A stretch of 45,103 nucleotides of DNA from an uncultured Bacteriovoracaceae bacterium (lineage in GTDB: Bacteria > Bdellovibrionota > Bacteriovoracia > Bacteriovoracales > Bacteriovoracaceae): assembly GCA_938034385.1 (NCBI GenBank), contig CALHLC010000002.1:1-45103 (forward strand), in the 5' to 3' direction. How positions within the stretch are numbered: the stretch's first letter is position 1; every line of letters starts with the position of its first letter. The translations under genes and the position numbers were made by a program. Below are positions 452 through 22,435 of this stretch, one piece after another. A model generated the notes under the pieces. It saw nothing but the letters and a program-made list of their open reading frames with translations. It did no database searches and was not told where the DNA came from.

Positions 452-1354
452 ATGGATCAAATTATTGAAGAAAAGAAGAGGTATCACGCCTCATACTTAA
501 GAGTCTCTACTAATATGCAATTTTCAGGCATGGAATCTCAGATGAGATCAATAGAGAGATATTATAAAGAAAACGATATTACGAATTATAAAATTTTTAA
601 AGATACTGCGATCTCTGGAGCCAAAGACTCCAGGCCAGCGTTAGATAAGATGATGGAAGAAATTAGAAGTGGAAATATTATTCAAGTGACTACTTTTTCT
701 TTTTCAAGAATTTCAAGATCATGTTCACATCTATTGAGATGTCTTGAAACAATGAGATCAAATAAATGTTCACTTGTAAGTCTTTCAGAAAAAATTGATA
801 CAAACACGGCGATCGGGCAAGCTTTAGTTGCAGTCGTCGGGGCCTTGAGTCAACTAGAACGAGATTTAATAAAAGAAAGAGTTTTAGCAGGGCTTGCAAG
901 AGTTAGAGCCGAAGGAAGAGTGCTTGGCAGAAAGAAGACTAGACCAAGTGTTTTAATTAGACAATTATTTATTAAAGGAATTTCTAGTCGTGAGTCGGCG
1001 AGAATTGCAAACACTTCGACAGGAAGTATTTCAAAAGAGATCTTAGAAATGAAATTAGAAATGGCGAAGGCACAAGGAATACCAAAGACTCAAGCTAACA
1101 GAATTTCAATTGATCGATTAAGAGAATATTTTCTTGATGATCCTTTTAAACATCAGAGGAAAGAAAAAGAGGAGAAAAAAGAAGAGATTCCCAAAAAAGA
1201 AGATGTTAATCAAATAATCACTCATCCTGAGTTAAAAGATGAATTGCCTCCGCTACCACCAGTAATTGATGAAAGATCTCCAAGACATTCAGCGAGAACT
1301 AGTGAAATTGTAACTAGGGGAGGAGATACGACCTCTGTTGAAATTATTAAATAA
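452..1354 (+). CDS. Serine recombinase (resolvase/invertase family)
   Basis: A 300-residue site-specific recombinase. The N-terminal catalytic domain shows YLRVSTNMQ with the nucleophile Ser19 and Arg17, then SGAKDSRPALDKM and a linker-helix region GALSQLERDLIKERVLAGL around residues 128-146. A resolvase-type helix-turn-helix follows (GRKKTRPSVLIRQLFIKGIS...SRESARIANTSTGSIS). In the usual DRLSRS stretch the Asp is replaced (FSFSRISRS). A charged Lys/Glu- and Pro-rich tail after residue 225 is longer than in minimal resolvases and may bind partners. Being the first gene of the ICE, it could resolve multimers or tandem copies, or invert a segment; which one is not shown. Confidence 0.88.
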   Translation: MDQIIEEKKRYHASYLRVSTNMQFSGMESQMRSIERYYKENDITNYKIFKDTAISGAKDSRPALDKMMEEIRSGNIIQVTTFSFSRISRSCSHLLRCLETMRSNKCSLVSLSEKIDTNTAIGQALVAVVGALSQLERDLIKERVLAGLARVRAEGRVLGRKKTRPSVLIRQLFIKGISSRESARIANTSTGSISKEILEMKLEMAKAQGIPKTQANRISIDRLREYFLDDPFKHQRKEKEEKKEEIPKKEDVNQIITHPELKDELPPLPPVIDERSPRHSARTSEIVTRGGDTTSVEIIK

Positions 1355-6716: not shown

Positions 6717-8219
6717 ATGAAATTACTCTTAATAATATTCTTAGGACTATCATCTTGCTTAGATAGAGAAGACGTTGCTTTAATTCCCTACAAAAAGTCT
6801 GTTCCCTCTCTACCTTTAACATTTGATCCTGCCAGTATGAACGATACTTCATCTCTACTTGTGTCCGAGATGATTTATGATGGTCTTCTTAGATTCGATG
6901 GAGCAAAGGTATTGCCCGCAATAGCTAAGGATTGGAAAGTATCTAATGATAATTTATCGATTACATTTTTCTTAAAAGATGGAGCTAAGTTTCATAATGA
7001 TCAATCCATTACTGCTGATGATGTTATCACGTCTCTTGCTCGTTATTTGTCGCCAGAAAGTAAAGTCTATAATCACTTTGATTCAATTTTAGGTGCTGAA
7101 GATTACAGATCTCAAAAATCTAAAGAAGTTAGAGGGATTATAAAAGTTGATTCGACTACAATCCAGATAAAACTTAAAAATACTGACCCTAAAATACTAA
7201 TGAGTCTAGCTGGAGCAACTGCGAAGATCTTTCCTGCGAATCATTTGAGGAAAAAAGATTTCTTCAAAAATCCAATAGGATCAGGTGCCTACAAAATCAA
7301 AGACATTAAGGATAAGACTATAATTCTATCAAGATTTGCTAACTATCATTCGATTAAGCCAAAGCATGAAGAATTTCATTTAATCGAGCATGACTCAATA
7401 GAGAAGATTCAAAAATCATTGGCAAAAAAAGAAGTAATCGATTATTCAGGACAAGTCTTAACTGGAAAAGAGTCATTTGATTCTAGGTTTACCAAGAAAA
7501 CAATGACCTCTCCTGAAACATGGATCATTGGTCTAAATTCTTCTATACCACCATTTAATTCTAAAAAGTTCAGAAAAGTATTTAAGAACTTGTTTGATTC
7601 TAAAGATTTTAGAGAGAAGTTTCATAAAACTTCTATTGAAGCTAAAAGCTATATCCCACCACATTTATTAGAAACAGACATAAATATGTCGCCAAATAAA
7701 AACTTAAGCATTCCTGAACATCAAACGTTTGATTTATATATCCCACAAGAACTAGCAGAGTCTAAGAAAATAGAAGTTTATCTTCAAACTATATTATCAA
7801 CACTTGGATTCAAGGTAAGAGTAAAAGCGATAAAATGGCATGACTTAATGAAGCATTATGATCAAAGATCAGCATCAGCACTTTTATATTCAATGAATAT
7901 AGATTATCCAGATGCTTACTTCATGTTTCAGAGCTTTTTAATTGGTGATAAAGATAATTTCTTTCAAGCTAAGAATGAAAAGCTTCATCAATTAATCTTG
8001 GACTCTAAGAACACTAGAGATCATGGAAATAAAGTCTTGAAACACAAAAAAATTGCTCAAATAATTGAGGATGAAGCTTACACAGTTAATCTTCTACATC
8101 CAAGGCATACTTACTTTGTTCATAAGTGTATTAAGAATTTTAAAACTCCTTTCATGGGAATTGTTCATGCTGATTTTAAAAGTCCATACATAAAAAGAGG
8201 TTGTCATGAAAACTCTTAA
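6717..8219 (+). CDS. Peptide/solute-binding lipoprotein (SBP family 5, DppA/OppA-like)
   Basis: A 500-residue extracytoplasmic binding protein. The lipobox LSSC (Cys14) anchors it to a membrane. The family-5 layout is clear: LTFDPASMND, LVSEMIYDGLLRFDG, LPAIAKDWKVS, ITFFLKDGAKFHNDQSITADDV and a later lobe with MNIDYPDAYF. Such proteins normally deliver oligopeptides or other small solutes to an ABC importer, but no permease or ATPase gene is here. Instead the gene overlaps a histidine kinase by 14 bp, so a ligand sensor feeding the kinase is more likely than an importer part. The ligand is unknown. Confidence 0.87.
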   Translation: MKLLLIIFLGLSSCLDREDVALIPYKKSVPSLPLTFDPASMNDTSSLLVSEMIYDGLLRFDGAKVLPAIAKDWKVSNDNLSITFFLKDGAKFHNDQSITADDVITSLARYLSPESKVYNHFDSILGAEDYRSQKSKEVRGIIKVDSTTIQIKLKNTDPKILMSLAGATAKIFPANHLRKKDFFKNPIGSGAYKIKDIKDKTIILSRFANYHSIKPKHEEFHLIEHDSIEKIQKSLAKKEVIDYSGQVLTGKESFDSRFTKKTMTSPETWIIGLNSSIPPFNSKKFRKVFKNLFDSKDFREKFHKTSIEAKSYIPPHLLETDINMSPNKNLSIPEHQTFDLYIPQELAESKKIEVYLQTILSTLGFKVRVKAIKWHDLMKHYDQRSASALLYSMNIDYPDAYFMFQSFLIGDKDNFFQAKNEKLHQLILDSKNTRDHGNKVLKHKKIAQIIEDEAYTVNLLHPRHTYFVHKCIKNFKTPFMGIVHADFKSPYIKRGCHENS

Positions 8220-9537
8220 AAAACACATTAACGATGATACATTGATATTTAAATATTTTATTCCAATAATTCTTAGTGTGTTGATTTCAACTCTAGTAAT
8301 TGGAGTGCAGTTATATTTATCAAAAAAATCTCATGAAATGCTACTTCAAGAGAAGTCTTACCAAGTGTCGACATTTGTTAAAAATAATCAATTTCTAGAA
8401 CTTCAGCAGATGATTCAAAACATGAGTGATAATAGTGATCATTTATATACGATTTCAAAAAATGAATTTGTGGTCGCTACAACTGAGAATAATGAACTTC
8501 TTCATACTCACGAGTACTCATCATCAATATTCGAGAAACTAACAAGTTTCTATTTGCCGATTAGTTTGGATATATCTAGCGAAGTCTCAGTTTATAAATT
8601 TATCAATCTTAAAGGGTACCTCGTAAGATCAATGATTGTATTTTTTCTTATTGGATTAGTGTTACTAACTTCTTTTCATTTTTTTTTTAGAAATATTACT
8701 AAAAAAATCTCCTCAAGATTAACTGAGCTTAAGAAGTTAGAAAATGCTCTGGATGATCTAGGAAATAAAGAAACTCAAAAATCAAACTATCAAATAAAAG
8801 AGATTCAGAAAGTCTCTGATAAAATGATCTCTACTTTTAACGAGCTAAAAAAGTCTCAAAACAAAATAAAAATGAACTCATCAAGAGTTAGTGCTTATTC
8901 GATGATCTCAAGCTTTGTTCATGACTTAAATAATCAAATAGTTGTCATCAGAATGCTTTTTGCTAAATTATTCAATTTCTCCGAAGAAATTGAGCGAGAA
9001 AAAATGAAAATAATTAGAGATATTGAAGGACTAACTGATCAAGTCTTTAATCAACTCGATTCATTTAGACAGTCTTACAAAGAGGAGTTGTTTTTAGATG
9101 AGAAAAACCTATCTAAAACTATTACTGATGCTTTGGTTAATATTAAAAGTCTATCAGATAAAGAAAAAAATATTCAACTTGAAGTTGATATTGAAGATCA
9201 AGTTAATTTTGCTCACGATAAAAATGCAGTCATTAGAGTAATTCAAAACCTAGCAAAAAATGCATTTAAGGCCTGTAAAGAAAAAATTAAAATCACTCTT
9301 CAGACTGATGGGCCAATAATTAAGCTTCATATTGAAGATGATGGCGAAGGTATGGATAAAAAAGATTTACTTCAATACTTAAAAGGTAAAAAAATCTCTG
9401 AAAGTAAAGATGAAACTGGCCTTGGTTTATTTTCTTGTAATTATATTATCAGGCTTCTTGGAGGAAGACTATTTTATTCAACCTCATCTTTTGGTGGTGC
9501 AAGATTTTCAATAAATCTTGAGGAGGCAATATGCTAG
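8206..9537 (+). CDS. Membrane sensor histidine kinase
   Basis: A 443-residue kinase. Transmembrane segments at about 17-37 and 144-165 bracket a periplasmic domain of about 105 residues. A HAMP-like linker and coiled coil follow, then the phosphoacceptor box SSFVHDLNNQ (His239), N box NLAKNAFKAC, G1 DDGEGMD and G2 GLGLFSC, giving a complete catalytic domain. The start lies inside the end of the binding-protein gene and the stop overlaps the response-regulator gene by 7 bp. The small periplasmic domain is a plausible docking site for the ligand-bound lipoprotein; this is inferred from gene order. Confidence 0.9.
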   Translation: MKTLKKHINDDTLIFKYFIPIILSVLISTLVIGVQLYLSKKSHEMLLQEKSYQVSTFVKNNQFLELQQMIQNMSDNSDHLYTISKNEFVVATTENNELLHTHEYSSSIFEKLTSFYLPISLDISSEVSVYKFINLKGYLVRSMIVFFLIGLVLLTSFHFFFRNITKKISSRLTELKKLENALDDLGNKETQKSNYQIKEIQKVSDKMISTFNELKKSQNKIKMNSSRVSAYSMISSFVHDLNNQIVVIRMLFAKLFNFSEEIEREKMKIIRDIEGLTDQVFNQLDSFRQSYKEELFLDEKNLSKTITDALVNIKSLSDKEKNIQLEVDIEDQVNFAHDKNAVIRVIQNLAKNAFKACKEKIKITLQTDGPIIKLHIEDDGEGMDKKDLLQYLKGKKISESKDETGLGLFSCNYIIRLLGGRLFYSTSSFGGARFSINLEEAIC

Positions 9538-10871
9538 ATCAAAATATATTATTAGTTGATGATCATGATTTATTTGCCAACCTAATTATTGATGAATTGA
9601 AAAACTTCAATTTCACAAGATCTTCAAGTGTACAATCAGCGATTGATCTTCTTGAATCAAATCATAAAGAAATCAGTGTTGTATTAATCGACTTAGAGTT
9701 TCCGCTTGATAAGCTTCAAGGAATCGATCTTGTAAATATGATGAATGAAAAATATCCAGATATTCCATACATTATTATGAGTGGTTGTACTGATATTAAA
9801 AAAATCGTCTCTGGCATGGAATCAAAGCGAGTTAAGTTTATCATTAAAGGGCAGCCAAAGATGTTTGATGAATTAGAATTAGCGATTTTTAAAGCGATTC
9901 ATATAAAAGAAAAAATTGAGTCCGATAAGCAGCATCAATTTTTAACATATTCAATTAAGATGAAATCAAAAATTGCTAAACTTGATATTATTCTAAAAAA
10001 CACCAAAGCAGCTGATTTAAAAGTTTTGATCACTGGTGAATCTGGTACTGGTAAAGAGTGTATGGCCAGATATATAGCAAAAAGATTGAATAGGCCTTTT
10101 ATAGCAGTAAATATGGGTGGAATGAATTCTAATCTATCTGCTTCAGAATTATTTGGACATGTAAAAGGAGCATTTACTGGAGCAGTTAAAGGCAAAATTG
10201 GAATCTTTGAGAAGTTTAGTGATGGAGTCATATTTCTTGATGAAATAGCTGATTGTCCAATGGATATTCAGATTCAGCTATTTCGAGCGATTCAAGAAAA
10301 AGAAATCACAAAAGTTGGGTGTAATAAAACAATTAAAATAAACCCAATAATTATCAGTGCAACCAATCTAGATCTTGAAGAATTAATCAAAGAAAATAAA
10401 TTCAGAGAAGAGCTTTATCATAGGCTAGCAACTTTTAAGATTAATCTTTTATCGTTAAGAGAGAGGCCAAAAGATATAGAGCTATTTACATTTCACTTTT
10501 TAAATGAATTTAGTAATCAGAATCCAATTGATATTACCCCTGATGCTCTTGAATATTTTAGAAATTATCCATGGAAAGGCAACATCAGAGAACTCAGAAA
10601 CGTAATCTTAAAATTAAGTGCATTAGCTAAAGAGTCGAATTCAGAAATCTCCCTGAAACTTGTAAAGGAAGCTCTTGAAGTAAAAATAAGTCCTAAGATA
10701 AATAAAGAGCTAATTATTAAAACTCTTAATAAATTTGAAGGAAATAAAACTCAAACTTCAAATGCTTTAAATATTCACAGAAATCAACTCTATAGATATT
10801 TGAAGCAGTATCAAATTGATGAGATTATAGAATCTAAAAAAGGTCGACCAGTTAAAAGGATTCTCGCATGA
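9531..10871 (+). CDS. Sigma-54-dependent response regulator (NtrC type)
   Basis: A 446-residue regulator with all three NtrC-type parts. The receiver has the acidic pair (LLVDDHD), phosphorylation site Asp54 (VVLIDLEFP) and a Lys (FIIKGQP). The AAA+ domain has Walker A GESGTGKE, the sigma-54 contact loop GAFTGA (residues 213-218), Walker B GVIFLDEIAD and the arginine-finger region REELYHRLA. A Fis-type HTH (NKTQTSNALNIHRNQLYRYL) lies at the C-terminus. It should take phosphate from the kinase encoded just upstream and activate sigma-54 promoters. Candidate targets in the window are at 12602 and, less securely, 17059. Confidence 0.93.
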   Translation: MLDQNILLVDDHDLFANLIIDELKNFNFTRSSSVQSAIDLLESNHKEISVVLIDLEFPLDKLQGIDLVNMMNEKYPDIPYIIMSGCTDIKKIVSGMESKRVKFIIKGQPKMFDELELAIFKAIHIKEKIESDKQHQFLTYSIKMKSKIAKLDIILKNTKAADLKVLITGESGTGKECMARYIAKRLNRPFIAVNMGGMNSNLSASELFGHVKGAFTGAVKGKIGIFEKFSDGVIFLDEIADCPMDIQIQLFRAIQEKEITKVGCNKTIKINPIIISATNLDLEELIKENKFREELYHRLATFKINLLSLRERPKDIELFTFHFLNEFSNQNPIDITPDALEYFRNYPWKGNIRELRNVILKLSALAKESNSEISLKLVKEALEVKISPKINKELIIKTLNKFEGNKTQTSNALNIHRNQLYRYLKQYQIDEIIESKKGRPVKRILA

Positions 10872-11599
10872 GTAGTAAAGTAATATTTATTCCCGGAGGG
10901 GCTGGGTTAAGCTCAAATGGGTTCAAGTTTCAAAAAGATCTAGATAATGAAAACTTTTCATTCTTTGATCCAATGGGAACAGTTAGCGCTTTAAAAACTG
11001 AACCAACTTATGAGAACTTATTATCTGAGTTAAAAGAATATGTTAACCAATTTGAATCAGTCATTTTAGTTGGACATTCCTTTGGAGCTTTTCAAGCGGC
11101 TGAATTGTCGGATCTAGAAAATGTAAAAGGAGTAATCCTCGTTTCTCCTCCAATACTAGAAGACGTTCTGATCCATCTAGGAGAGAACTTTTCAAGTTAT
11201 CAAAAAAAACCTCAATTAGAAATTACTACTTTTCTTGATAATGATCCAAGTGATGAGCTATATGCAAAGTGGTATAAGGAACATACAGATATTTATTTTA
11301 CTGATCAAACTCATGCAAACTTAGTCTTTGATGATCAGGTATGTGTAAAAAGCTATCAATTAGCTAATTCCAAAATTGTTGGGAAGGATCATCTTTTAAG
11401 GAAACTAAATAAAGTAAATATTAAAACACTCATTATCTCAGGAAGTAAGGATAAGATTGTTCCTGAAAAATTTGCAAAAAAACAATCTGAGTTAACAAAT
11501 TCAGAACTTAAAATAATTAAAAATTGCGGGCATTTCCCGTTTATTGAAAAATCTCATGAGTTTAATTCAATTCTTCATGAATTTTTAAAAGGACTATAA
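10868..11599 (+). CDS. Alpha/beta hydrolase
   Basis: A 243-residue enzyme with the alpha/beta hydrolase fold. It shows an N-terminal strand and oxyanion region FIPGGAGLSSNG, nucleophile elbow GHSFG with Ser71, the acid in SGSKDKIVP and the catalytic His in NCGHFPFIE, so the triad is intact. There is no signal peptide, so it is cytoplasmic. It overlaps the response-regulator gene by 4 bp (ATGA). The substrate is unknown. The linkage to a sensor system suggests it may make, process or degrade a small acyl or ester compound; that is speculation from context. Confidence 0.88.
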   Translation: MSSKVIFIPGGAGLSSNGFKFQKDLDNENFSFFDPMGTVSALKTEPTYENLLSELKEYVNQFESVILVGHSFGAFQAAELSDLENVKGVILVSPPILEDVLIHLGENFSSYQKKPQLEITTFLDNDPSDELYAKWYKEHTDIYFTDQTHANLVFDDQVCVKSYQLANSKIVGKDHLLRKLNKVNIKTLIISGSKDKIVPEKFAKKQSELTNSELKIIKNCGHFPFIEKSHEFNSILHEFLKGL

Positions 11600-11600
11600 A

Positions 11601-11897
11601 ATGAATAAATTATTAAAAATAATCACAGTCTTACTCACCGTTTCTGCGTTTTCTCAAGTATTTAACAATGAAAGATCCGTATCGATAAAAGATTTTAATC
11701 AATTATCAAAATTCTATCTCGATTTATCTAATACCTTTTTAGAATTATCTAAGAAAGCGCAATCACTAGAAGAGAGTGATTTAAATCATTACGAGAAAGA
11801 ACAGCTTTTTAGAAAAGAAATGGATCTAAAAATGGATTCCATAAATAACACAGTTTTAGAGATCGGAAATAACTTTAAAGGCTCTCCAGGAGTTTAA
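11601..11897 (+). CDS. Small exported helical protein
   Basis: A 98-residue protein. Residues 1-18 form a signal peptide (LLKIITVLLTVSAFSQ) and the rest is predicted mostly helical and charged, with heptad-like leucines (YLDLSNTFLELSKKAQSLEES). It could be a short coiled coil in the periplasm. The gene begins 1 bp after the hydrolase stop and its own stop touches the methyltransferase start. No family recognised. Confidence 0.6.
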   Translation: MNKLLKIITVLLTVSAFSQVFNNERSVSIKDFNQLSKFYLDLSNTFLELSKKAQSLEESDLNHYEKEQLFRKEMDLKMDSINNTVLEIGNNFKGSPGV

Positions 11898-12403
11898 TGA
11901 AGAGTAATATCATTGCTTCAAGTATTTTACTTGGAGCATGTTTTTTATCTCTTTATAGATATTTTAGATTTGAAGAAATCTTCTTTTTACTTCTAGCTTT
12001 TAGAGAATTAATTGCGAGTATAAACTTTCTAAGAAGAAAAAATCCAATCGCTGAATCTAAAAATGCATTTATCGCTTATCTCTCATCAGGACTACCATAT
12101 TTATACTTCCCTCCAAGCTCATTAAGCTTTGAGCTTATCTCAAATGTATTATTTATCTCAGGTTTTTTTATCGTAACACTTGCTACCATTGATCTTGGTA
12201 AATCAATTGGTGTTAAAGCAGCAAAACGTGATCGAGTGACAACTGGAATTTATAAATACATCAACCATCCAATGTATCTAGGTTATTCAATTGCTCAATT
12301 TGGAATGGTGCTTTTAAACCCGATCAATATATTCATTTACATCTTATCGTTATTTTTATTTTTCAAAAGATCTTCTGAAGAAAATAGAATTCTTAACTCT
12401 TAA
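11897..12403 (+). CDS. ICMT-like membrane methyltransferase
   Basis: A 168-residue integral membrane protein with about four hydrophobic segments. The diagnostic motif of the isoprenylcysteine carboxyl methyltransferase / phospholipid methyltransferase superfamily is present: TTGIYKYINHPMYLGY, followed by a hydrophobic helix and a short basic tail with SSEENRIL, where these enzymes bind SAM. Bacterial members methylate lipids, prenyl compounds or carboxyl groups; the substrate here is unknown. It is the last gene of the signalling operon and, with the hydrolase, may build or modify a lipophilic signal (inference). Confidence 0.75.
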   Translation: MKSNIIASSILLGACFLSLYRYFRFEEIFFLLLAFRELIASINFLRRKNPIAESKNAFIAYLSSGLPYLYFPPSSLSFELISNVLFISGFFIVTLATIDLGKSIGVKAAKRDRVTTGIYKYINHPMYLGYSIAQFGMVLLNPINIFIYILSLFLFFKRSSEENRILNS

Positions 12404-12421: not shown

Positions 12422-12539
12422 TGTGACAGTAAAGTGTGACACTTTTTTGGTGTGTTAACTCTTTAATTTTAAAAGGCTTTCAAAAATAAAGTGTCACAAA
12501 TTAGAAGTGTGACACTTTTGTGACATTTAATCGTGACAA
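12422..12539. promoter_or_regulatory. Array of TGTGACA boxes, including two AAGTGTgACACTT palindromes
   Basis: TGTGACA-type boxes lie at 12422-12428, 12436-12442 (TGTGACA inside a palindrome), 12493-12499 region (inverted, TGTCACA), 12509-12514, 12519-12525 and 12533-12538 (CGTGACA). Two are perfect palindromes centred on G: AAAGTGT-G-ACACTTT (12431-12445) and AAGTGT-G-ACACTT (12505-12517), 74 bp apart. The array sits between the signalling operon and the sigma-like genes. It could be enhancer sites for the sigma-54 regulator, operators for a repressor, or iterons. Confidence 0.65.
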
Positions 12540-12601: not shown

Positions 12602-12617
12602 TGGAGCGAGCTTCGCT
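12602..12617 (+). promoter_or_regulatory. Candidate sigma-54 promoter (GG-N10-GC)
   Basis: TGGAGCGAGCTTCGCT keeps the invariant GG (12603-12604) and GC (12615-12616) with exact 10-bp spacing, plus several other -24/-12 consensus bases. It ends 34 bp before the first sigma-like gene and lies 85-170 bp downstream of the palindromic array, a normal enhancer distance. It also overlaps a 6-bp hairpin (GAGCGA/TCGCTC), so it could instead be a weak terminator. Confidence 0.35.
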
Positions 12618-12650: not shown

Positions 12651-13121
12651 ATGAAGAACATCAAAGCAGTTTCAAAAACGTGGAATATAACAAGGTTTAG
12701 CAAATACTTTGAAGACCTTGAGAAAAGCTATGACTCCATCATAGAGGACGATTTAGAACGTCTAAGAGAGATTTTATTAAAACCAGATGCATCGAGTTTA
12801 ATTCTTGAAAATGATAGGATGCTTCGGCTTGTAATTCCTATAGTCTTAAAAGAACTTACAAGAAATCAGCAACAAGTGATTGTTGGAACATTTTATCTGA
12901 AAAAATCTTCAAGAAAACTTGCTGAGAAATTCGGTATTAATCACAGATCAATCTTAAAAACAAAAGATCGCGCACTTCTTGCAATCATTAGAATCTTAAT
13001 GAAACCAAGTTTTATTCAAACGATAGAAATTAATGAATTACGAGAAGTTTTCAAGAAATCAAAATCATTAGTCCCAGGAAAATTTATAGACACAATTAAG
13101 AAAACTATTACCTCTCATTAG
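12651..13121 (+). CDS. Sigma-region-4-like HTH protein A
   Basis: A 156-residue protein with a central helix-turn-helix: LTRNQQQVIVGTFYLKKSSR followed by KLAEKFGINHRSILKTKDRAL (residues about 77-117). This matches the pattern of sigma-70 region 4 (-35 recognition), but no region 2 is present. The N-terminal 75 residues are helical and the C-terminal part basic. It is the first of four related short proteins here, which points to regulators of transfer genes rather than full sigma factors. The stop codon lies inside a 57-bp palindrome. Confidence 0.65.
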   Translation: MKNIKAVSKTWNITRFSKYFEDLEKSYDSIIEDDLERLREILLKPDASSLILENDRMLRLVIPIVLKELTRNQQQVIVGTFYLKKSSRKLAEKFGINHRSILKTKDRALLAIIRILMKPSFIQTIEINELREVFKKSKSLVPGKFIDTIKKTITSH

Positions 13122-13175
13122 TGTTTTTTTATTACAAACTGGGACCCGGTCCCAAATATTAATAAAAAAACACTA
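13119..13175. repeat. 57-bp compound palindrome in the leader of the second sigma-like gene
   Basis: The outer arms are perfect 16-mers: TAGTGTTTTTTTATTA (13119-13134) and TAATAAAAAAACACTA (13160-13175). The inner arms TGGGACC/GGTCCCA (13140-13146, 13148-13154) flank a single C, and symmetric 5-base internal loops separate the two stems. It starts at the stop codon of the upstream gene and ends 35 bp before the next start. It may act as a transcription terminator, attenuator, mRNA-processing site or operator. Confidence 0.85.
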
Positions 13176-13209
13176 GTGAAGGCCCCTAAGTTAACAAAAG
13201 GAGAAACAA

Positions 13210-13761
13210 ATGAATAAAAACAACAACTTAGAAAAAAAACCTTGGCTAGATGAGAACGGTTCTATGTATCCAGACTCTGTAATTAGAGAAATTCAAAAGG
13301 ATTGGACGCCAGCGATCTATGATCAATTCCTAAAGGAAACAATCGATGTACCTCTAAGAGAGACAATTTTAGATGATCCGAATCAATTTAATCGACTTGC
13401 TGAAAGAAACCAGTACTCAACATTTTACCCCGAATTTGATGATGGAAGAATCGAAGTACCTGCTAAAGCAAAAGACTATCTTGAAATTGCTATCAACGAA
13501 TTAGATGAAACAGAGAAAAGAGTTATCAATGGAATATTTTATGAAGAACTGACTCAAGTAGAAATAGCTGATGAGTTAGGAATAACCCAATGCACTGTTC
13601 ATTCGATTCTCGAAAGAGCATTGAATAATTTAAGAGAAATCATTCTAGAGTCTGATGGCGAGAAATTAATCAATATTCAAAAAAATGAATTCCAACAAAT
13701 AAAAGAACAAAACTCAGACGAGCTAATTGATGAAATAAATCAAATTTTAGAAGCAATTTAA
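13210..13761 (+). CDS. Sigma-region-4-like HTH protein B
   Basis: A 183-residue acidic protein. Residues about 95-140 hold the best region-4 match of the cluster: LDETEKRVINGIFYEELTQV, then EIADELGITQCTVHSILERALNNLRE. Ahead of it lies a ~95-residue domain with WLDENGSMYPDSVIREIQK and no sigma region 2. It has a good Shine-Dalgarno (AAAGGAG) 7 bp before its ATG, after the 57-bp palindrome. It probably binds -35-like DNA or RNA polymerase as an activator or antagonist; this is inferred from the motif only. Confidence 0.7.
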   Translation: MNKNNNLEKKPWLDENGSMYPDSVIREIQKDWTPAIYDQFLKETIDVPLRETILDDPNQFNRLAERNQYSTFYPEFDDGRIEVPAKAKDYLEIAINELDETEKRVINGIFYEELTQVEIADELGITQCTVHSILERALNNLREIILESDGEKLINIQKNEFQQIKEQNSDELIDEINQILEAI

Positions 13762-13773
13762 CAAAAGGAAAAT

Positions 13774-14061
13774 ATGAAAAAGAAATTTACAAACTTTCAA
13801 GGCCTTAAAGAATTACTTGTTGATATTAATACTTATGGCCCTTATCACAGACATTTTAAAATTATCTCAAAATCAATGGTGCATTTAAATGCTGAGGATA
13901 AAAAAATTATTATTCTTAAATATTTTGCAATGCTGGATACTTCAGAAATGGCCATGATTTTCTGGGTAACTGATAAAACGATGAGAAGAAGAATTAATAA
14001 GGCGATAAAAAACTTATGCTCAGTTTTAATCAAAGTTACGACTGATGAGGTGTACTCATGA
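13774..14061 (+). CDS. Sigma-region-4-like HTH protein C
   Basis: A 95-residue protein made almost wholly of a region-4-like domain: LNAEDKKIIILKYFAMLDTS, then EMAMIFWVTDKTMRRRINKAIKNL. A Phe-Trp pair sits where most family members have small or polar turn residues, so DNA contacts may differ. The gene begins 12 bp after protein B and overlaps the next gene by 4 bp (ATGA). Confidence 0.6.
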   Translation: MKKKFTNFQGLKELLVDINTYGPYHRHFKIISKSMVHLNAEDKKIIILKYFAMLDTSEMAMIFWVTDKTMRRRINKAIKNLCSVLIKVTTDEVYS

Positions 14062-14258
14062 ACACTGAAAAATTTGAATCAAAGTATCCCATTATAAGTT
14101 TATTAAAAAACTTGAAAGCACTCAGGGAGCATTATTATTCATGGGCATCTAGTTTGTCTTTAAGTGTAGTGACCAGAGATGCGAACATACAAAAAATGAT
14201 GACGACCTATGAGAGATACTTATCAAAAACAATAGAACTACTTGAGGGAGAATTATAA
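14058..14258 (+). CDS. Small helical protein, unknown function
   Basis: Sixty-six residues, mostly helical, with NLKALREHYYSWASSLSLSV and a second helix YERYLSKTIELLEGEL. There is no signal peptide or membrane segment. Its start overlaps protein C and its stop overlaps protein D by one base (TAATG). The tight coupling suggests a partner of the HTH proteins beside it. Confidence 0.55.
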   Translation: MNTEKFESKYPIISLLKNLKALREHYYSWASSLSLSVVTRDANIQKMMTTYERYLSKTIELLEGEL

Positions 14259-14599
14259 TGAAAGCTCTAATATTTCCACTGAGTTTAAAGAGAATTAATT
14301 CTCTAAAGAAGAAAAAAGACAAATCTCATTTAACATTAATTGAAGGAGGACAAACAAATTACTCGACAAATCAGAAGCAATTTTTAAAAGAAATACTTTT
14401 TGATCTTGAAATCAATGAGTTCTTAGTTCTGTATTTATTCTATTGGTATAATTTTTCAATAAAGGATCTATCAATATGCCTAGAAATAAGTGAAGAAACA
14501 GTCGAAGGACTCATTAAAAGTGGCGTCTCTGAGCTAAATTGTTCTTTTAAATCCACTTACAAGAATTGGATAAAAAACTTAAAGAAAACATTGAACTAA
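14258..14599 (+). CDS. Sigma-region-4-like HTH protein D
   Basis: A 113-residue protein. After a basic N-terminus, residues about 50-95 again follow the region-4 pattern: LEINEFLVLYLFYWYNFSIK, then DLSICLEISEETVEGLIKSGVSEL. The recognition helix is acidic and lacks the usual Arg residues, so it might bind protein rather than DNA. It is the fourth member of the cluster. Confidence 0.5.
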   Translation: MKALIFPLSLKRINSLKKKKDKSHLTLIEGGQTNYSTNQKQFLKEILFDLEINEFLVLYLFYWYNFSIKDLSICLEISEETVEGLIKSGVSELNCSFKSTYKNWIKNLKKTLN

Positions 14600-15391: not shown

Positions 15392-17044
15392 ATGAATTAT
15401 TTAAAAAAATTAATCAAAGTAATATTTATTTTCTCTTTTCTATCTTGCTCGTTCTCCAGTGAGAATAAGAACACTAAAACAGATTTATCAAAAATCGACA
15501 GTGATGGAGATCATATTAATGATGCTCTCGAAATCTTAAGAGGAATGAATCGCTTTGTTTCCGACTTACCCAAATTAGATGTCTCACTTGATGACTTTAT
15601 TCTTACGGTGAAAGTGAAGATACCAGAACAAGGATATAAGGATTATGTATTCTACTCAAAGGAGCTAAAAGGTAAGTCAGTACAAAATATTATACTAAAT
15701 AGTTTTTATCAAAAAACAGGTAGAACAAATTTTAGAATTTTCAACTCAAAAGCCATGAATCATAAGGCATTTGGATTTAGCTCAGTTGATGAGATGAGAT
15801 TAAAGAGTTTTCTTTATCCAATTCTCAGAATGAAAGGTGTTGAGTTTAAAATCAAGATGTCCATGCGAATGAAGGCAAGTCTGAACTCAAACTATGATAA
15901 GTATTTAAAGAATTTAAATTTTCAAATTACCAATTTTGATCGATTTTTTGTGCCAAAGTCTCTAACTGCCATTAATTCAAAGGATCTTGAATTTAGGCTC
16001 TCTGGAGATGGAAACAAAAACTTATTAAAGTCTTTATACCAAAAACAATACTTCTCTTTTGAGTTGCTTGATTTTCAAACAGATAAAAGATCTTTAAATG
16101 AGGTCTTGAAAAGCTCAAGTAGAAAAACCAATCAGCTTTATGTCTCTGATCAGAATATTACGAGAAAATATTTCGTTTCTAAAAATATGAAAAATCTATC
16201 AGAAGTTTTAAAAGAAGTACTTGGGAAGACTGCTAAGTTTAATAAAGAAAATGAAGAAATTTTAAGATTAGGAACCAGGGACGCTGAAAAAGAGAATTTT
16301 AAATTTTTAATCTCAGCATTTGGAAAACCTTTTAGAAAAATGAACTCCATTGTCAGGATTGCTGAAGGCAATCAAGATGGAGAACTAAAATATGAGGTAG
16401 TTAAAGATTATATTTCATCAGGCAGTGAAGAACACTTAGTCGATTTAGGAATAATTGATAATAAAATGATGATTAAGATTTTATTAAAACCAATTGAAAT
16501 AGCAGGAAGAAAAGGAGTGATTGCAAAACCTTATCGCTATAGACATAAATATTTTACCTGTCATTTTAACGAGCATAGGCTTCAGAGCTTTAAAGCTGGA
16601 TTTGTTTTAAATTCTAAGAACTTTAATGAGCTTAAATTTATGAGCTTTTTAACCTCTGATGGTGAATTTAGTCTTTTTGATCTTTATAAAAAGAAAAAAC
16701 TAAAAATCACCTTTAAAGATAAAAATGTACTTTTAGAGATTAGTTCTAAACATTTTTTAGAAGATGACTCTACTAATAATTTTAAATTTATAATTAAAGG
16801 TTCCAAGAGTACTTTTTACGAAGGAGTAAAAGTATTAACTGCAAGAGGACAAATTCAGTATTGTGCTCAACTTGTTGGGATGGTTCTTAATCAAGGAAAA
16901 TTATTAACTCCTGACTCAGAGAATGCTGCGTATTTTAAGGGAACTTTAAATTTAAGTAATCAGAGAATGGCAAGGCCATCATATTCATTTAGATCAAGAA
17001 GACTTGGAATTAATGCCAAGATCTATAAATCAATTAATCAATAA
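15392..17044 (+). CDS. Large lipoprotein with a calcium-binding-type DxDGD loop
   Basis: A 550-residue lipoprotein (lipobox FLSC, Cys19). Right after the anchor, DSDGDHINDALEILRG fits the thrombospondin type-3/dockerin-like calcium loop common in outer-membrane and surface proteins. The remaining ~480 residues are beta-rich and basic without a recognised family. The gene lies directly before the VirB2-VirB10 set, so a surface or mating-pair-stabilising role is plausible. The sequence does not prove whether it sits at the inner or outer membrane. Confidence 0.65.
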   Translation: MNYLKKLIKVIFIFSFLSCSFSSENKNTKTDLSKIDSDGDHINDALEILRGMNRFVSDLPKLDVSLDDFILTVKVKIPEQGYKDYVFYSKELKGKSVQNIILNSFYQKTGRTNFRIFNSKAMNHKAFGFSSVDEMRLKSFLYPILRMKGVEFKIKMSMRMKASLNSNYDKYLKNLNFQITNFDRFFVPKSLTAINSKDLEFRLSGDGNKNLLKSLYQKQYFSFELLDFQTDKRSLNEVLKSSSRKTNQLYVSDQNITRKYFVSKNMKNLSEVLKEVLGKTAKFNKENEEILRLGTRDAEKENFKFLISAFGKPFRKMNSIVRIAEGNQDGELKYEVVKDYISSGSEEHLVDLGIIDNKMMIKILLKPIEIAGRKGVIAKPYRYRHKYFTCHFNEHRLQSFKAGFVLNSKNFNELKFMSFLTSDGEFSLFDLYKKKKLKITFKDKNVLLEISSKHFLEDDSTNNFKFIIKGSKSTFYEGVKVLTARGQIQYCAQLVGMVLNQGKLLTPDSENAAYFKGTLNLSNQRMARPSYSFRSRRLGINAKIYKSINQ

Positions 17045-17056
17045 CCATTAAATCTA

Positions 17057-17077
17057 AGTGGCACTTAGGGTGCCACT
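17057..17077 (+). promoter_or_regulatory. 8-bp hairpin that also matches the sigma-54 -24/-12 pattern
   Basis: AGTGGCAC (17057-17064) and GTGCCACT (17070-17077) form a perfect stem. The same bases read TGGCAC-N5-GTGC with GG (17060-61) and GC (17072-73) exactly 10 bp apart, a close sigma-54 match. The pilin start lies only 23 bp after GC, leaving a very short leader. It could be an intercistronic hairpin, a promoter, or both. Confidence 0.4.
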
Positions 17078-17095
17078 ACTTTTCAAAGGATAACT

Positions 17096-17362
17096 ATGAA
17101 TCATTTAAATAAATTCTTATTGGTATTATTTTTACCAATTTTTACTTATGCAAAATCAATAGAATCAATTGCTAGAAGCTTTGGCCGAAAGGCCATGGAA
17201 ATCGGACTTATTATTGCTATTGGAGCAGTGATTGTTCATGGAATTGGCATTTTAGTTGGAAAGCAAGATGCTGGGAAAAAGTTAATTGTTGCTCTGATAG
17301 CCATTGGAATTATTGCCTCTGCCCCAGAAGTTGTTAGATGGATAACTGGGATAGCTCGCTAA
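17096..17362 (+). CDS. virB2: VirB2/TrbC-like pilin subunit
   Basis: An 88-residue protein with the pilin layout: a signal peptide (cut after FTYA, near residue 19), a short amphipathic stretch and two hydrophobic helices (LIIAIGAVIVHGIGILVG and LIVALIAIGIIASAPEVV) joined by a KQDAGKK loop. VirB2/TrbC subunits are extracted from the inner membrane to build the conjugation pilus. Its stop overlaps the VirB3-like start (TAATG), as usual for virB2-virB3 pairs. Confidence 0.85.
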   Translation: MNHLNKFLLVLFLPIFTYAKSIESIARSFGRKAMEIGLIIAIGAVIVHGIGILVGKQDAGKKLIVALIAIGIIASAPEVVRWITGIAR

Positions 17363-17610
17363 TGGAAGTACCAAAGTATCTTAATAAGAAAGTTACTCTT
17401 TATGGATTAGATTTTTTTGATATAGGACTCTTGATTTTTTTATTTATCGGCCAAAGTATTATTCAATTCAAGTTTGGTCTCTATTTTGTATTTTTTATAT
17501 TTTTGTTTATTTCAACAGTCAAAAAGTCGATCAGCTTTAAAGAATTATTTTTGATTTATAAATTCAGAAAAATTAAATACCTAACACTTAAACAAGGAAA
17601 AGAACAATGA
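17362..17610 (+). CDS. virB3: VirB3/TrbD-like inner-membrane protein
   Basis: The ATG at 17362 shares its A with the pilin stop codon and gives 82 residues starting MEVPKYLNKKVTLYG, a better start than the upstream in-frame one at 17338. Two hydrophobic segments (GLLIFLFIGQSIIQF and GLYFVFFIFLFIST) follow. Size, topology and position between VirB2 and VirB4 fit VirB3/TrbD, which helps VirB4 assemble the pilus. Its stop overlaps virB4. Confidence 0.75.
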   Translation: MEVPKYLNKKVTLYGLDFFDIGLLIFLFIGQSIIQFKFGLYFVFFIFLFISTVKKSISFKELFLIYKFRKIKYLTLKQGKEQ

Positions 17611-19463
17611 TATTACCAATTAGTTGGAATACTGAGAGTATTACTCATCAAGGAGTAAGCTCTGTATGTTATAAATTAAAGCTTCCAGATCTAGATGTGA
17701 TCTCTACTGATGAAATAGAAATTTTTCATGAAAATTTAACTCAAGCAATTTCTAGGTTAAAGGGAGATAAGTTTTATAAATTCTATAAATTTAGTAATGA
17801 ACTATACTTGAATACAGATTGTGAGGAAAACTTAAATCTAGGTGTAGAATTAGAAAAGATTGCTCCAGTTGAGTTAATAAATCTATACACCAATGGAGAT
17901 CATGAAGTGTTATTTGAACCGTCTCACTTTTATGATGAAAAAACATATCGAACAATCTTTTCAATGTATACGCTTCCTAATGATGTGTATAACTTGCTTC
18001 TATCAGAGTTTGAGAGTGTTCAAATAAATTTTTATCCAAAAGTGATAAAAAATTCTAGAAGGTTTTTAGATAGAAAAAGAAGACTTCATCATGGAAATTT
18101 ATTTAAAAACATTCAAGACTTCGATTCGAGTCTAGCTTATAAGCAAAACAATGATCTTTTATTAGATGTAAAAAGTGCAAGAAATAATCTTCTTGATTTA
18201 GAAGTATTTATTACCCTTGAGGCAAAAAGTGAAAATGAACTAGCAGATAAGGTAAAAGTTTTTAAGGAAAGAGTAGATCAGCTCGGATTTGAATTTAGAC
18301 GTGAAGTTAGGCTTTTGCAGTTTTGTTATATTAAAAACATTCCTGGAGTTAGGAGTTATAAGTTTAGAGAGCACCTCACTCCTTGTAATATTGCATCAAA
18401 GTTTTTACCAGTATCTAAAGATCATTTACAGAGTAAAACTGATCAATCGATTGAACTCTTTTCAAGAACTCATCAAGAAGTTTATTTAGATCTATTTAGT
18501 AAAGAGGCAATTAATTATAACTGCCTTATTACGGGAGAGAGTGGTGCTGGTAAATCAATGATCGCTAATAAAATAATCCATCATTATGCGAGTAAAAATG
18601 TGAAAGCAATTATTGTAGATCTAGGGAACTCATTTAAGAGAAATATCGAATATCTTGGAGGGAGTCAATTAAGTACAACCTTTAATCCATTTCAATATAA
18701 CGATCCTGAATATTTGTTAGCGTTTATTAAATCAATCGTAACTGATCTAAGTAAATCCGAATCAGGAGCTATATTTAAAATCCTCAGAGATTCTGAAGTT
18801 ACTATCACCAACCTAGATCAATTACTTGAATTAATTAAAGATGCTAGATTAGGGATAGAAAATTACTTTGAAGAAATTAGAAAGTATTTTTGTACAGAAA
18901 AAATTGAGTTAACAAATTTAACATATGTAGATTTATCTCTATATCCTGATGAAATCAAAGCACCTCTTTTGGTCTTTTTAATTCGGCAATTTAAGTCGAT
19001 GAGTGGAGAGAGAATATTTTTATTTGATGAATGTTGGAGTTTTCTAAAATCTAATGGGGAGTTTATAGCTGAAACTTTTAGAACATTAAGAAAGCTTAAC
19101 GGGTCAGCAATAGCTATTTCTCAAAATCTTGATGACTTTTTATCAACTGATCTAGGAAGAGTTGTATTCGCTAATACATATTATAAGTTTTTATTTAAAC
19201 AAGATCTTTTTAATGATTCATCTTTATCAATGCTTTCCAGAGAAAAGCTTAAAACTGTTTATTCAAGAAAAGATCAATATTCTGAATTTATCACTCTCAT
19301 TGAAAATAGGCCTAAAGTTTGTCGGTATATTGCTAGTTCGCTAGAAAATGTACTCTTCAATACTACTGCTAGTTTTTCAATACAGGTTGAGAATTATCTT
19401 AAAAACCATAGAGGAGTAGAACCTAAAGAACTCTATCTCTCTATGGCGAAGATTTTTGAATAA
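17607..19463 (+). CDS. virB4: VirB4/TrbE-type conjugation ATPase
   Basis: A 618-residue ATPase. The N-terminal ~290 residues form the membrane-associating domain and the C-terminal half is the P-loop ATPase: Walker A GESGAGKS (about 309-316), Walker B IFLFDECW (about 470-477), and a conserved FRTLRKLNGSAIAISQNLDD block carrying the sensor Gln. VirB4 proteins power pilus assembly and substrate transfer. It is shorter than most VirB4 proteins (about 790-880 residues), with a compact N-terminal domain. No virB11 partner is present in the element. Confidence 0.92.
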   Translation: MILPISWNTESITHQGVSSVCYKLKLPDLDVISTDEIEIFHENLTQAISRLKGDKFYKFYKFSNELYLNTDCEENLNLGVELEKIAPVELINLYTNGDHEVLFEPSHFYDEKTYRTIFSMYTLPNDVYNLLLSEFESVQINFYPKVIKNSRRFLDRKRRLHHGNLFKNIQDFDSSLAYKQNNDLLLDVKSARNNLLDLEVFITLEAKSENELADKVKVFKERVDQLGFEFRREVRLLQFCYIKNIPGVRSYKFREHLTPCNIASKFLPVSKDHLQSKTDQSIELFSRTHQEVYLDLFSKEAINYNCLITGESGAGKSMIANKIIHHYASKNVKAIIVDLGNSFKRNIEYLGGSQLSTTFNPFQYNDPEYLLAFIKSIVTDLSKSESGAIFKILRDSEVTITNLDQLLELIKDARLGIENYFEEIRKYFCTEKIELTNLTYVDLSLYPDEIKAPLLVFLIRQFKSMSGERIFLFDECWSFLKSNGEFIAETFRTLRKLNGSAIAISQNLDDFLSTDLGRVVFANTYYKFLFKQDLFNDSSLSMLSREKLKTVYSRKDQYSEFITLIENRPKVCRYIASSLENVLFNTTASFSIQVENYLKNHRGVEPKELYLSMAKIFE

Positions 19464-19494
19464 TTTTCTCTAAATCACCTAATTAAATTAAGTT

Positions 19495-19516
19495 CTTGAG
19501 GCCTTTAGTCCTTAAG
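19495..19516 (+). terminator. Intercistronic hairpin after virB4
   Basis: CTTGAGG (19495-19501) pairs with CCTTAAG (19510-19516, one G-T pair) and is followed by an A+T-rich run. The next gene has its own ribosome site (AAAAAGGA). It may give partial termination or an mRNA processing point. Confidence 0.45.
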
Positions 19517-19537
19517 TTAAATTAAAAAAGGATTACT

Positions 19538-20182
19538 ATGAAAATGTTAATATTTTTTCTTCTATTCTCTATTAATTCATCTGCATCAATGTTTGGTGAA
19601 GAAAATATTGTTCTAGGACAAATTCTAACTACAACAATTACTCAACTTAATGAGTTAGAAAAATTGGTCTCAAATGCTGAAAAATATACCTCAAAAATTC
19701 AAGAATATAACGAGCTTATAGAAGATCAGTATTTAAAAGCAATGAGAGTAAAATACTTAGCTCTTGAGTTAACAGCTAAAAAAGAAATCAAGAACCTTGA
19801 AGATGTAAATAATCAAATTAGAGATCTTCAGAATTCAATGAATAATATTAAAAACCTTCTAAAAGAATATGATCAAATCATTATTGATAGTGATAAGGAA
19901 GAATTAAGAATATCCATTAATAAGAAGTTAATTAAATCAAAAAAACTCATCGCTAAGAAGCAAGTAAGAAGATCAGTAAATGTAAAGGATCTAAAAACGG
20001 CCAGTCGTTTAACAGCTCAAAATACAGCAATGATCCTTGAAACAGGACTTGATCAGGAAAAGACTCTAAGAGAGCTTCTAGTAGAGCAAAAGAAGTCAAA
20101 CAAGCTAAAAGCACAAGAACTTAAGTCAAAGAAAGAAAATTATCTTGCTAAAAAGAAACTCTACTCTGGAGACGAACTATGA
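19538..20182 (+). CDS. VirB5/TrbJ-like exported coiled-coil protein
   Basis: A 214-residue protein with a signal peptide (residues 1-17) followed by SMFGEENIVLGQILTTTITQ, close to the opening of TrbJ/VirB5 proteins. The rest is almost all long charged helices (LNELEKLVSNAEKYTSKIQE, then NIKNLLKEYDQIII). VirB5 forms the pilus tip and TrbJ acts in mating-pair formation. The position between VirB4 and VirB6 is the canonical one. It overlaps the next gene by 4 bp. Confidence 0.7.
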   Translation: MKMLIFFLLFSINSSASMFGEENIVLGQILTTTITQLNELEKLVSNAEKYTSKIQEYNELIEDQYLKAMRVKYLALELTAKKEIKNLEDVNNQIRDLQNSMNNIKNLLKEYDQIIIDSDKEELRISINKKLIKSKKLIAKKQVRRSVNVKDLKTASRLTAQNTAMILETGLDQEKTLRELLVEQKKSNKLKAQELKSKKENYLAKKKLYSGDEL

Positions 20183-21492
20183 TGAAATCAATCCTCCTTG
20201 TTACTGATCCATCTCTTCAGGCACTTTACGAGCAATATTTGAAAATTTCATATTATTTTATCTTGCCCTGTTTTTTAGTAACAATGATTGTTAAGTATTT
20301 TACAGATTCTGATTTTATAGATGTTCTTAAAAAATTATTAATCATTTTATTAGTATTTGGATTTTATAAGAAGTTTCATGTGAGTTTTATTGAAGTTTCT
20401 CTTGATACTTCTGAGAGGATTCTGAAGCAAGTAAGTTCTAAGAATATATTTTTGAAGTTTCATCAAAAGCTAGGTGGTCAAACTACTAAGAAAAATAAAG
20501 ATAAGGGCCTATTTGATCGATTTAAAATGCCTAGTTTTAATGATCTACTTGCAACCTTATTTTTTCTATTAATGAAAATAATGAGCTTTCTTGTTAGGAT
20601 TATCTATTCACTTGTCTATCATTTAAGTTATCTATTTGCTCCAGTTGTCTCCTTGATTTACTTAATAGGATTAAATAAATCTGGGGTTGAATCTCTCATT
20701 AGATCTACTCTTTGGTGTATGGTGATGCCTTTTGTAATTATCTCTTTATTGGCCATTATTGGAAATACCTTTGATTTAGCAAATATGAATAATCAAGTAC
20801 CAGAAATAGAGAAAATATTATGGTTATTCTCAATTTCACTTTTAATGCTTCTAACTCCATTAATTAGTTTAAATATCGTAAAAGGAGTCGAAATAGCCCA
20901 CTACGGATCGGAGATGGGAAAACTCACTTATTCAGGTGTGTTAAATGCAATGAGTGTTATGCCAGTAACAGCGAAAGTGTTTTCAAATTCAATAACAGGC
21001 AATTCAAATGGAAATGTTAATACTAATTCAAAGTTTCAAGAAGGGATGAGAAAAAATGAATTGAAAAATAATCTGCCACAAAATAGAAAAGAGAATTCAA
21101 GTTACTCAATAAACAACTTAAACAAACAACAAAGCAAGAATAGTTTAAAAACGAATCAGATTGTATCGAGTAATCAAAACAATAACACCTTAACTGATCA
21201 GGCAATAACTCAGAACAAGGTAGAAAAGATGAATAAAGACCAAAATATTTCTTTGAATAAAAACGATAGCAAAAAACTTATAAGCAGCAATCAAAAAGAA
21301 TCAGTACCTGGCCCTCAAACGATTTCAAGACCTGAGAAGATAACTGAAGTTAAAAAAGAAACAATTCAAAACAAAGAGAACAAGTTTCAAAAGACAGATT
21401 TTAAATCAAGAAGCATGATGGAGAAAACAGACATTAGAAGTATCAAAAGAACAAATCTAAACAAGAAACGAAGCTTAAAGGAGAAAAAATGA
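20179..21492 (+). CDS. VirB6/TrbL-like polytopic membrane protein
   Basis: A 437-residue protein. Five to seven hydrophobic helices fill residues 20-270 (for example YYFILPCFLVTMIVKYF, LLATLFFLLMKIMSFLVRII, LLMLLTPLISLNIVKG), as expected for the VirB6/TrbL inner-membrane channel part. From about 280 onward the chain becomes a hydrophilic Asn/Lys/Gln/Ser-rich tail of ~155 residues with little predicted structure, a feature of TrbL-type proteins. Coupled by overlaps on both sides. Confidence 0.8.
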   Translation: MMKSILLVTDPSLQALYEQYLKISYYFILPCFLVTMIVKYFTDSDFIDVLKKLLIILLVFGFYKKFHVSFIEVSLDTSERILKQVSSKNIFLKFHQKLGGQTTKKNKDKGLFDRFKMPSFNDLLATLFFLLMKIMSFLVRIIYSLVYHLSYLFAPVVSLIYLIGLNKSGVESLIRSTLWCMVMPFVIISLLAIIGNTFDLANMNNQVPEIEKILWLFSISLLMLLTPLISLNIVKGVEIAHYGSEMGKLTYSGVLNAMSVMPVTAKVFSNSITGNSNGNVNTNSKFQEGMRKNELKNNLPQNRKENSSYSINNLNKQQSKNSLKTNQIVSSNQNNNTLTDQAITQNKVEKMNKDQNISLNKNDSKKLISSNQKESVPGPQTISRPEKITEVKKETIQNKENKFQKTDFKSRSMMEKTDIRSIKRTNLNKKRSLKEKK

Positions 21493-21965
21493 CTCATGTT
21501 GAAAATTCAAAAACAAGCGAAGTGTATAACACTGAAATATATCAAATTAAGAGGATGCTAAAAATTTGTGGAATACTATTTTTAATCCTCTCAATGTTAA
21601 CAGGAATCAATCTCTATACTAGAAGAAATCTAATTCTTGGAATTAGTGCTCCCATTAGAGAAATCAACCAACAAGACATTTGTGAGGCAGGATTAATAGA
21701 TGTGGCGAGAAAAGATTTAAACTCCCCGTATTTTACTAAGAAGCTATTAGAGTCGATTAAAGAGCAAGACTTCAAGCTAGATAAGTTCTTATTAACCTCT
21801 CTAAGTTTTAAGGACAACATCTGTAATATGTTTCTTAAATCAAATAATGAATTAATGTTCTTTCGAGTAGAGCTTATCCCAGATGAGGGAATACTGCCTT
21901 TTAAATTAAATCTAGTGAAGCAAATTCACTATAAGGAGATTGATGAATATTTATATATTAACTAA
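21489..21965 (+). CDS. VirB8-like bitopic inner-membrane protein
   Basis: A 158-residue protein with a short cytoplasmic N-terminus, one membrane helix (ICGILFLILSMLTGINLY, about 30-47) and a periplasmic domain of ~110 residues. Size, topology and position between VirB6 and VirB9 match VirB8/TraE-type core components, although sequence similarity is not obvious by eye and the periplasmic domain is shorter than usual. It could also be a TrbF-like protein. Confidence 0.55.
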   Translation: MTHVENSKTSEVYNTEIYQIKRMLKICGILFLILSMLTGINLYTRRNLILGISAPIREINQQDICEAGLIDVARKDLNSPYFTKKLLESIKEQDFKLDKFLLTSLSFKDNICNMFLKSNNELMFFRVELIPDEGILPFKLNLVKQIHYKEIDEYLYIN

Positions 21966-22407: not shown

Positions 22408-22435
22408 AAAAACTAACATTTTTGGAGGTAACAAA

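Follow-up and report, generated by a model that had tools for sequence, protein, structure and literature searches.

A putative peptide-pheromone operon on an integrative and conjugative element of a Bacteriovoracaceae bacterium

A 45,103-nucleotide stretch of DNA (the window) from an uncultured Bacteriovoracaceae bacterium, contig CALHLC010000002.1, carries a six-gene operon at positions 6717-12403 within an integrative and conjugative element (ICE) of 28.6 kb bounded by tRNA-Leu att repeats. The operon may constitute a full peptide-pheromone circuit on this ICE, with conjugative transfer as its output, a reading to which we assign a probability of about 0.6. An earlier sequence-only reading had proposed a sensing circuit tied to ICE transfer, and this is borne out by the linkage of related loci to type IV secretion system (T4SS) genes, and by the promoter type and operator-like repeats that the sensing and transfer (tra) operons of relatives have in common. 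The earlier reading envisaged a lipophilic or ester signal; instead of a free-standing lipophilic molecule, the likely signal here is a small peptide that the operon itself encodes. This peptide ends in PG(I/V) and may be methyl-esterified by a methyltransferase encoded next to it. Sequence evidence supports the make-up and conservation of the gene set, the family of precursors, the linkage to ICEs and, in relatives, the common promoters and operators.

In the proposed scheme, the product of 11601-11897 would be exported as a precursor whose C-terminal tail (GSPGV in the window) would be the signal. A methyltransferase resembling isoprenylcysteine carboxyl methyltransferases (ICMTs) would probably cap the C-terminal carboxylate of the tail as a methyl ester, and a hydrolase resembling proline iminopeptidases would trim, mature or inactivate the peptide. 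A solute-binding protein (SBP) of the SBP_bac_5 family would bind the peptide outside the inner membrane and report to a histidine kinase, the kinase would phosphorylate an NtrC-type regulator, and the phosphorylated regulator together with sigma-54 would switch on the transfer operon. In most relatives the regulator would also activate its own operon; positive feedback of this kind is typical of quorum sensing. The identity of the ligand, its methylation, the direction of trimming and the sign of the circuit (inducing or repressing) are the parts of this scheme that we infer.

The six-gene operon

The six open reading frames (ORFs) encode, in order, the SBP, the kinase, the regulator, the hydrolase, a 98-amino-acid (98-aa) protein and the methyltransferase. 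Their coordinates agree with the tight junctions described earlier, with overlaps of 14, 7, 4 and 1 bp and one 1-bp gap. Five of the six have firm domain assignments in Pfam/NCBIfam, the 98-aa ORF being the exception. The earlier description of the gene set holds for the genes themselves, but it left the 98-aa ORF unlabelled and missed the conserved family of exported peptides to which this ORF belongs.

The absence of an ABC transporter, also proposed earlier, stands: no permease or ATPase gene of an ABC importer is found among the window ORFs in or around the operon, nor in the conserved gene set of relatives. A role in nutrient uptake was rejected because there is no permease. No LuxI or LuxR homologue occurs among the six operon proteins (Pfam/NCBIfam), and the conserved set includes no gene for a PrgX-type cytoplasmic peptide receptor or for Opp-dependent import, having a kinase and a regulator instead.

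A family of small, probably exported peptides

The 98-aa ORF (11601-11897, plus strand) has no match in Pfam or NCBIfam. Its alignment with the ORFs at the same place in relatives reveals only two conserved features, a hydrophobic beginning and a P-G-I or P-G-V ending. In all members a hydrophobic MK leader is followed by a variable linker and then by a conserved C-terminus, and this combination suggests small exported precursors whose function resides in the C-terminal end. In the window the tail is GSPGV, and in relatives it is usually xPGI.

Each of the 32 loci examined has a precursor gene between those for the hydrolase and the methyltransferase, and the precursors range in length from 37 to 118 aa. 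Where no ORF is listed, the gap of 70-275 nt between the two genes encodes a peptide of 37-56 aa with the same plan. The last three residues across the 32 loci are PGI (22), PGV (5) and PTV (2), with PTI, PGA, PHI and GGI also occurring. One locus (L134:6103-6377) has two tandem precursor genes, with the ends HPGV and HPGA. Three further ORFs in the precursor listing are out of frame and were set aside as artefacts.

Proposed receptor, kinase and regulator

The proposed receptor (6717-8219, plus strand) matches SBP_bac_5 (PF00496, E 7.5e-47) with 160.6 bits against a cut-off of 32.4. Its profile matches DppA (1dpe, 1dpp), OppA and the enterococcal pheromone receptor PrgZ (4faj, E 2.7e-31). An AlphaFold model of the protein (mean confidence score, pLDDT, 86) likewise matches DppE, DppA, MppA, OppA and PrgZ, with a Foldseek E of 1e-34. 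It had been described as a binding lipoprotein; a lipobox is present in the window, but the lipoprotein anchor is not conserved, a plain signal or anchor segment taking its place in most relatives. In DppA, Asp408 binds the amino group of the peptide and Arg355 binds its carboxylate. By profile alignment Asp408 corresponds to D396 of the window protein, which is invariant in 17 sequences, and Arg355 to Leu346, which is likewise invariant. The change from Arg to Leu would fit a ligand whose C-terminal carboxylate is not free, for instance a methyl ester, and is suggestive only; binders of longer peptides also use other residues at this position, which tempers the ester interpretation.

The histidine kinase (8206-9537, plus strand) has a HATPase_c domain, an invariant H239 in an HDLNN box, and two transmembrane segments (18-36 and 143-161, from hydropathy) that flank a periplasmic domain of ~105 aa. 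The regulator (9531-10871, plus strand) combines a receiver with an invariant D54, a sigma-54 AAA+ domain with the GAFTGA motif and a Fis-type helix-turn-helix (HTH), as assigned by the Pfam families Response_reg and Sigma54_activat and a Fis-type HTH match; it is thus of the NtrC type. RpoN is encoded in the host genome.

Methyltransferase and hydrolase

The membrane methyltransferase (11897-12403, plus strand) belongs to the ICMT/PEMT-like proteins (PF04140; PEMT, phosphatidylethanolamine methyltransferase). Its profile matches the solved ICMTs 4a2n, 5v7p and 5vg9 across the catalytic HPxYxG...R...E region, and both the HPxYxG and R...E motifs, which mark the ICMT family, are invariant. ICMTs methylate C-terminal carboxylates.

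The alpha/beta hydrolase (10868-11599, plus strand; Abhydrolase) has proline iminopeptidases as its closest solved relatives in a profile search (E 7e-22), and its GHS nucleophile motif and His222 are invariant. Both a peptidase and an esterase are possible, and the choice between them stays two-way because the protein scores below the NCBIfam cut-off for proline iminopeptidases (TIGR01250; 54.4 against 167.65 bits).

Distribution and linkage to transfer genes

Among 369 genomes of the phylum, a profile search with the SBP found the module in 31, with 37 loci in total and usually the same gene order. Kinase and SBP searches of 129 genomes of the same family recover the same gene neighbours, and the order SBP-kinase-regulator-hydrolase-methyltransferase is repeated in relatives (up to 20 kb read around each match). 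This recurrence of the gene set is far beyond chance. The copy in the window is the most divergent, its kinase being 19-24% identical to those of the other loci, and the module was not found in the other three genomes of its genus. In distant versions (L141, L144, L145 and L146; SBP E 1e-72 to 1e-82) the methyltransferase precedes the SBP and the kinase; L144 and L145 have the order regulator, hydrolase, methyltransferase, SBP, kinase, and L145 is again beside TraC.

The co-occurrence with transfer modules that the sequence-only reading had suggested looking for was found: T4SS genes are close by at 22 of the 26 loci with enough flanking sequence (the exceptions are L135, L142, L078 and L098), the contigs of 11 of the 37 loci being too short to count. 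At most of the T4SS loci the operon stands directly before, or divergent from, the tra operon. The contrary pattern, in which the operon would lie mostly off mobile elements and together with ABC permeases, was looked for at these loci and is not what they show. In a tree of the SBP, kinase and regulator, the operons of ICEs with a small TraC are nested within the clade of ICEs with a large TraC, and this mixture of T4SS types indicates that the module has been exchanged between transfer systems.

Beyond the phylum, the SBP subfamily gave no match at strict cut-offs in the phylum of L031 (titled Myxococcota; 237 genomes), in that of L034 (titled Halioglobus; 299 genomes) or in viral contigs, searches that had no positive control and leave absence unproven. 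A plasmid search with the SBP returned as top matches only ABC-type SBPs at below 30% identity, and a kinase scan of genome contigs returned generic kinases only.

Some copies are broken: insertions interrupt the kinase in L097 and, with a 606-aa ORF, the hydrolase in L136, and the kinase of L062 has an in-frame stop. The ICE cargo flanking the operon in L063, L065, L067, L069, L071 and L075 often includes defence-type or restriction genes (HsdM, TIR-like, SIR2, PDDEXK nuclease and DUF262-like, part of them checked with Pfam).

Promoters and operator-like repeats

The 26 operon upstream regions were scanned for sigma-54 promoters with an approximate -24/-12 matrix, against a background of 569 other upstream regions (95th percentile 10.6, 99th percentile 13.9). 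Thirteen of the 26 have a site above the 99th percentile, each lying 47-62 bp upstream of the SBP start. The tra operon has comparable sites ahead of it in L063, L065, L067, L074 and L148, and shorter-spaced ones in L133, L136 and L137.

Operator-like repeats occur upstream of both the sensing and the tra promoters in 11 ICEs. They fall into three motif classes that co-vary between elements: ATATCGC in L063, L065 and L067 with ATATTGC in L077; GTAGC in L074, L075, L132 and L139; and TCTCTCA in L133, L136 and L137. An unguided search with words from the operon upstream regions found a second cluster in the tra leader of L063, L065, L067, L132, L133, L136 and L137. The test of repeat sharing was anchored on promoters, and the divergent group, missed with guessed tra starts, was thereby found. 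Cognate operon/tra pairs have 125 words in common against 73 +/- 13 for random pairing, a value reached in 1 of 20,000 permutations, which is an upper estimate of the strength of sharing, inflated because the 11 elements are partly related.

In the window, a cluster of TGTGACA/TGTCACA repeats at 12422-12525, a candidate operator of the regulator, holds 5 of the 6 copies present in the whole 45 kb, and GTGTCACA occurs there 3 times against 0.32 expected. A weak and uncertain sigma-54-like site, TGGAGCGAGCTTCGCT, follows at 12602-12617 on the plus strand, with a score of 11.8, between the 95th and 99th percentiles. For this ICE, we infer the link from regulator to transfer from the relatives.

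Weighing the evidence

Several observations weigh against a pheromone circuit that controls transfer. Besides the approximate matrix and the inflated permutation value, operator sharing is modest locus by locus, and L063, L074 and L075 are not significant alone. In the window itself, the region upstream of the SBP gene has neither a sigma-54 site nor a shared repeat, the operon has no repeats in common with its tra leader, where the TGTGACA copies stand before the transfer operon only, and the evidence on the tra side is weak, with the sigma-54-like site at 12602 overlapping a hairpin. Most ICMT copies, the one in the window included, stop just past the R...E motif and are without the C-terminal segment that the distant variants have. 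TraC homologues are common, one profile giving about 146 matches in the phylum and another about 95 in the family, and roughly 9% of the ICEs found in the phylum carry the module, from which it follows that the module is not a general transfer switch. Finally, L078 and L098 are related chromosomal copies without the sigma-54 regulator, situated among polysaccharide synthesis genes.

This low carriage and these two chromosomal copies would be expected if the module regulated host traits such as surface polysaccharide and were merely carried by ICEs. Such hitchhiking appears improbable, given the position of the operon directly before or divergent from tra at most T4SS loci and the operator repeats and promoter type common to the two. 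L078 and L098 retain a PGV precursor and carry a 102-aa protein that may be receiver-like.

The module could also control transfer by environmental sensing, with the SBP and kinase detecting an outside peptide from prey, host or nutrients and the PG(I/V) protein serving as an accessory or envelope part. DppA/OppA-like receptors usually bind environmental peptides, and nutrient sensing by an SBP and a kinase is known from the chitin-binding protein and ChiS in Vibrio. We regard this alternative as unlikely, although less so than the others, as it gives no role to an ever-present precursor with a conserved end or to two co-transcribed modifying enzymes. Alternatively, the hydrolase and methyltransferase might make or remove a methylated lipid or ester, which the small protein would carry or assist. 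ICMT/PEMT enzymes act on membrane substrates, and the Phc system of Ralstonia uses a methyl-ester signal made by a methyltransferase together with a kinase and a regulator. A lipophilic signal of this kind has a low probability, comparable to that of hitchhiking, since the receptor has a peptide-binding fold that keeps the Asp for the peptide amine and the conserved set includes no gene for fatty-acid or polyketide synthesis.

Comparison with known systems

If the operon is a peptide-pheromone circuit, its logic resembles that of pCF10 and its wiring that of LuxPQ-LuxO, while the defining parts of both are absent. In Enterococcus, transfer of the conjugative element pCF10 is tuned by a peptide receptor of the SBP_bac_5 family and a small peptide precursor, both encoded on the element; the self-made peptide, iCF10, is inhibitory to transfer and signals the density of donors (PMC5552905). 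Because iCF10 is inhibitory, the sign of the present circuit may be either inducing or repressing. An SBP_bac_5 receptor and a small exported precursor encoded on the element are common to both systems (PrgZ/PrgX and cCF10/iCF10 in pCF10). In pCF10, however, PrgZ passes the peptide to the host Opp permease for import to PrgX, whereas here there is no permease, and a membrane kinase, a sigma-54 regulator, a methyltransferase and a hydrolase accompany a different precursor and Gram-negative-type machinery.

The wiring from a periplasmic binding protein and a membrane kinase to a sigma-54 NtrC-type regulator is that of LuxPQ-LuxO in Vibrio. LuxP, in contrast, binds autoinducer 2 (AI-2), the phosphorelay passes through LuxU, and the system lies off conjugative elements without a precursor, ICMT or hydrolase. 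An ICMT-family enzyme is paired with a peptide pheromone in yeast, where Ste14 methylates the C-terminal carboxylate of a-factor; a-factor is farnesylated at its CaaX cysteine, whereas the present tails end in PG(I/V) with no conserved cysteine. Ralstonia Phc likewise joins a methyltransferase, a kinase and a regulator around a methyl-ester signal (3-hydroxypalmitic acid methyl ester, 3-OH PAME), but that signal is a fatty acid, the methyltransferase is unrelated, and there is neither a peptide-binding protein nor a link to ICEs. Cell-cell signals also decide the transfer of mobile elements in TraR/acyl-homoserine lactone (AHL) control of Ti plasmids and in RapI-PhrI of ICEBs1, which use AHL-LuxR or Rap-Phr parts; none of these is present here.

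The sequence-only reading knew of no conjugation control of this exact composition, and our literature search, whose coverage lacks most subscription journals, likewise found no description of the gene set. To our knowledge, peptide signalling this complete (precursor, modifying enzymes, receptor, kinase and regulator) has been described on conjugative elements only in Gram-positive bacteria, with other parts, and the substrates of bacterial ICMT-like proteins are mostly unknown. The operon would be of a known kind, signal-controlled conjugation, and there is a real possibility that its class of signal is new. Specifically, ribosomal peptides ending in PG(I/V), methyl-esterified by an ICMT, sensed by an SBP and a kinase and acting through sigma-54 on conjugation in Gram-negative-type ICEs might form a new class of pheromone, for which we put the odds a little below even. 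A pheromone circuit of this type would add a new chemistry to the known signals, assign a role to bacterial ICMT-like proteins, offer a direct handle on the timing of ICE transfer in this phylum and represent a new type of cell-to-cell signal deciding when bacteria share DNA. The C-terminal sequences of the precursors make the prediction directly testable with synthetic peptides.

The ICE and its surroundings

The element has the integrase, att repeats at a tRNA, T4SS and coupling protein of an ICE. A direct repeat of 149 nt (96% identity; 1-149 and 28626-28774) contains the integrase C-terminus and the 3' half of tRNA-Leu, which places the left end of the ICE near 75-133. The attR core (28700-28758) is part of this repeat, with its second copy at about 75-133, and lies in tRNA-Leu(CAA) at 28703-28789. 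The tyrosine integrase (27362-28699, plus strand; PF00589) abuts the 3' end of this tRNA gene, and a serine resolvase (452-1354, plus strand; PF00239, E 3.3e-36) is encoded close to the left end. The contig appears to start in a circular-form or tandem junction of the ICE, because the copy at 1-149 carries the integrase end, and this junction suggests that the ICE excises or exists in more than one copy.

Domain matches identify conjugation genes at 15392-25883 on the plus strand, including TraC/VirB4 (17607), TraE/TrbL-like, CagX-like, TraM-like and VirD4/TraD (23534) genes. The ORF at 25113-25883 has no Pfam match, and the scan for a relaxase covered part of the ICE ORFs. Four small genes for proteins with a sigma-70-region-4-like HTH head the transfer operon (12651-14599, plus strand; from translations, with Pfam run on the first two giving PF04545 at E 0.0068 and 4.8e-15). 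L062 and L063 have related weak matches in the corresponding position.

Just outside the ICE, a second remnant of a tRNA-Leu 5' half (28929-28977) is 90% identical to 28751-28799 and was perhaps left by an earlier integration at the same site. A transposase-like gene, recognized from its translation only, lies farther outside the ICE at 42644-44056 on the minus strand.

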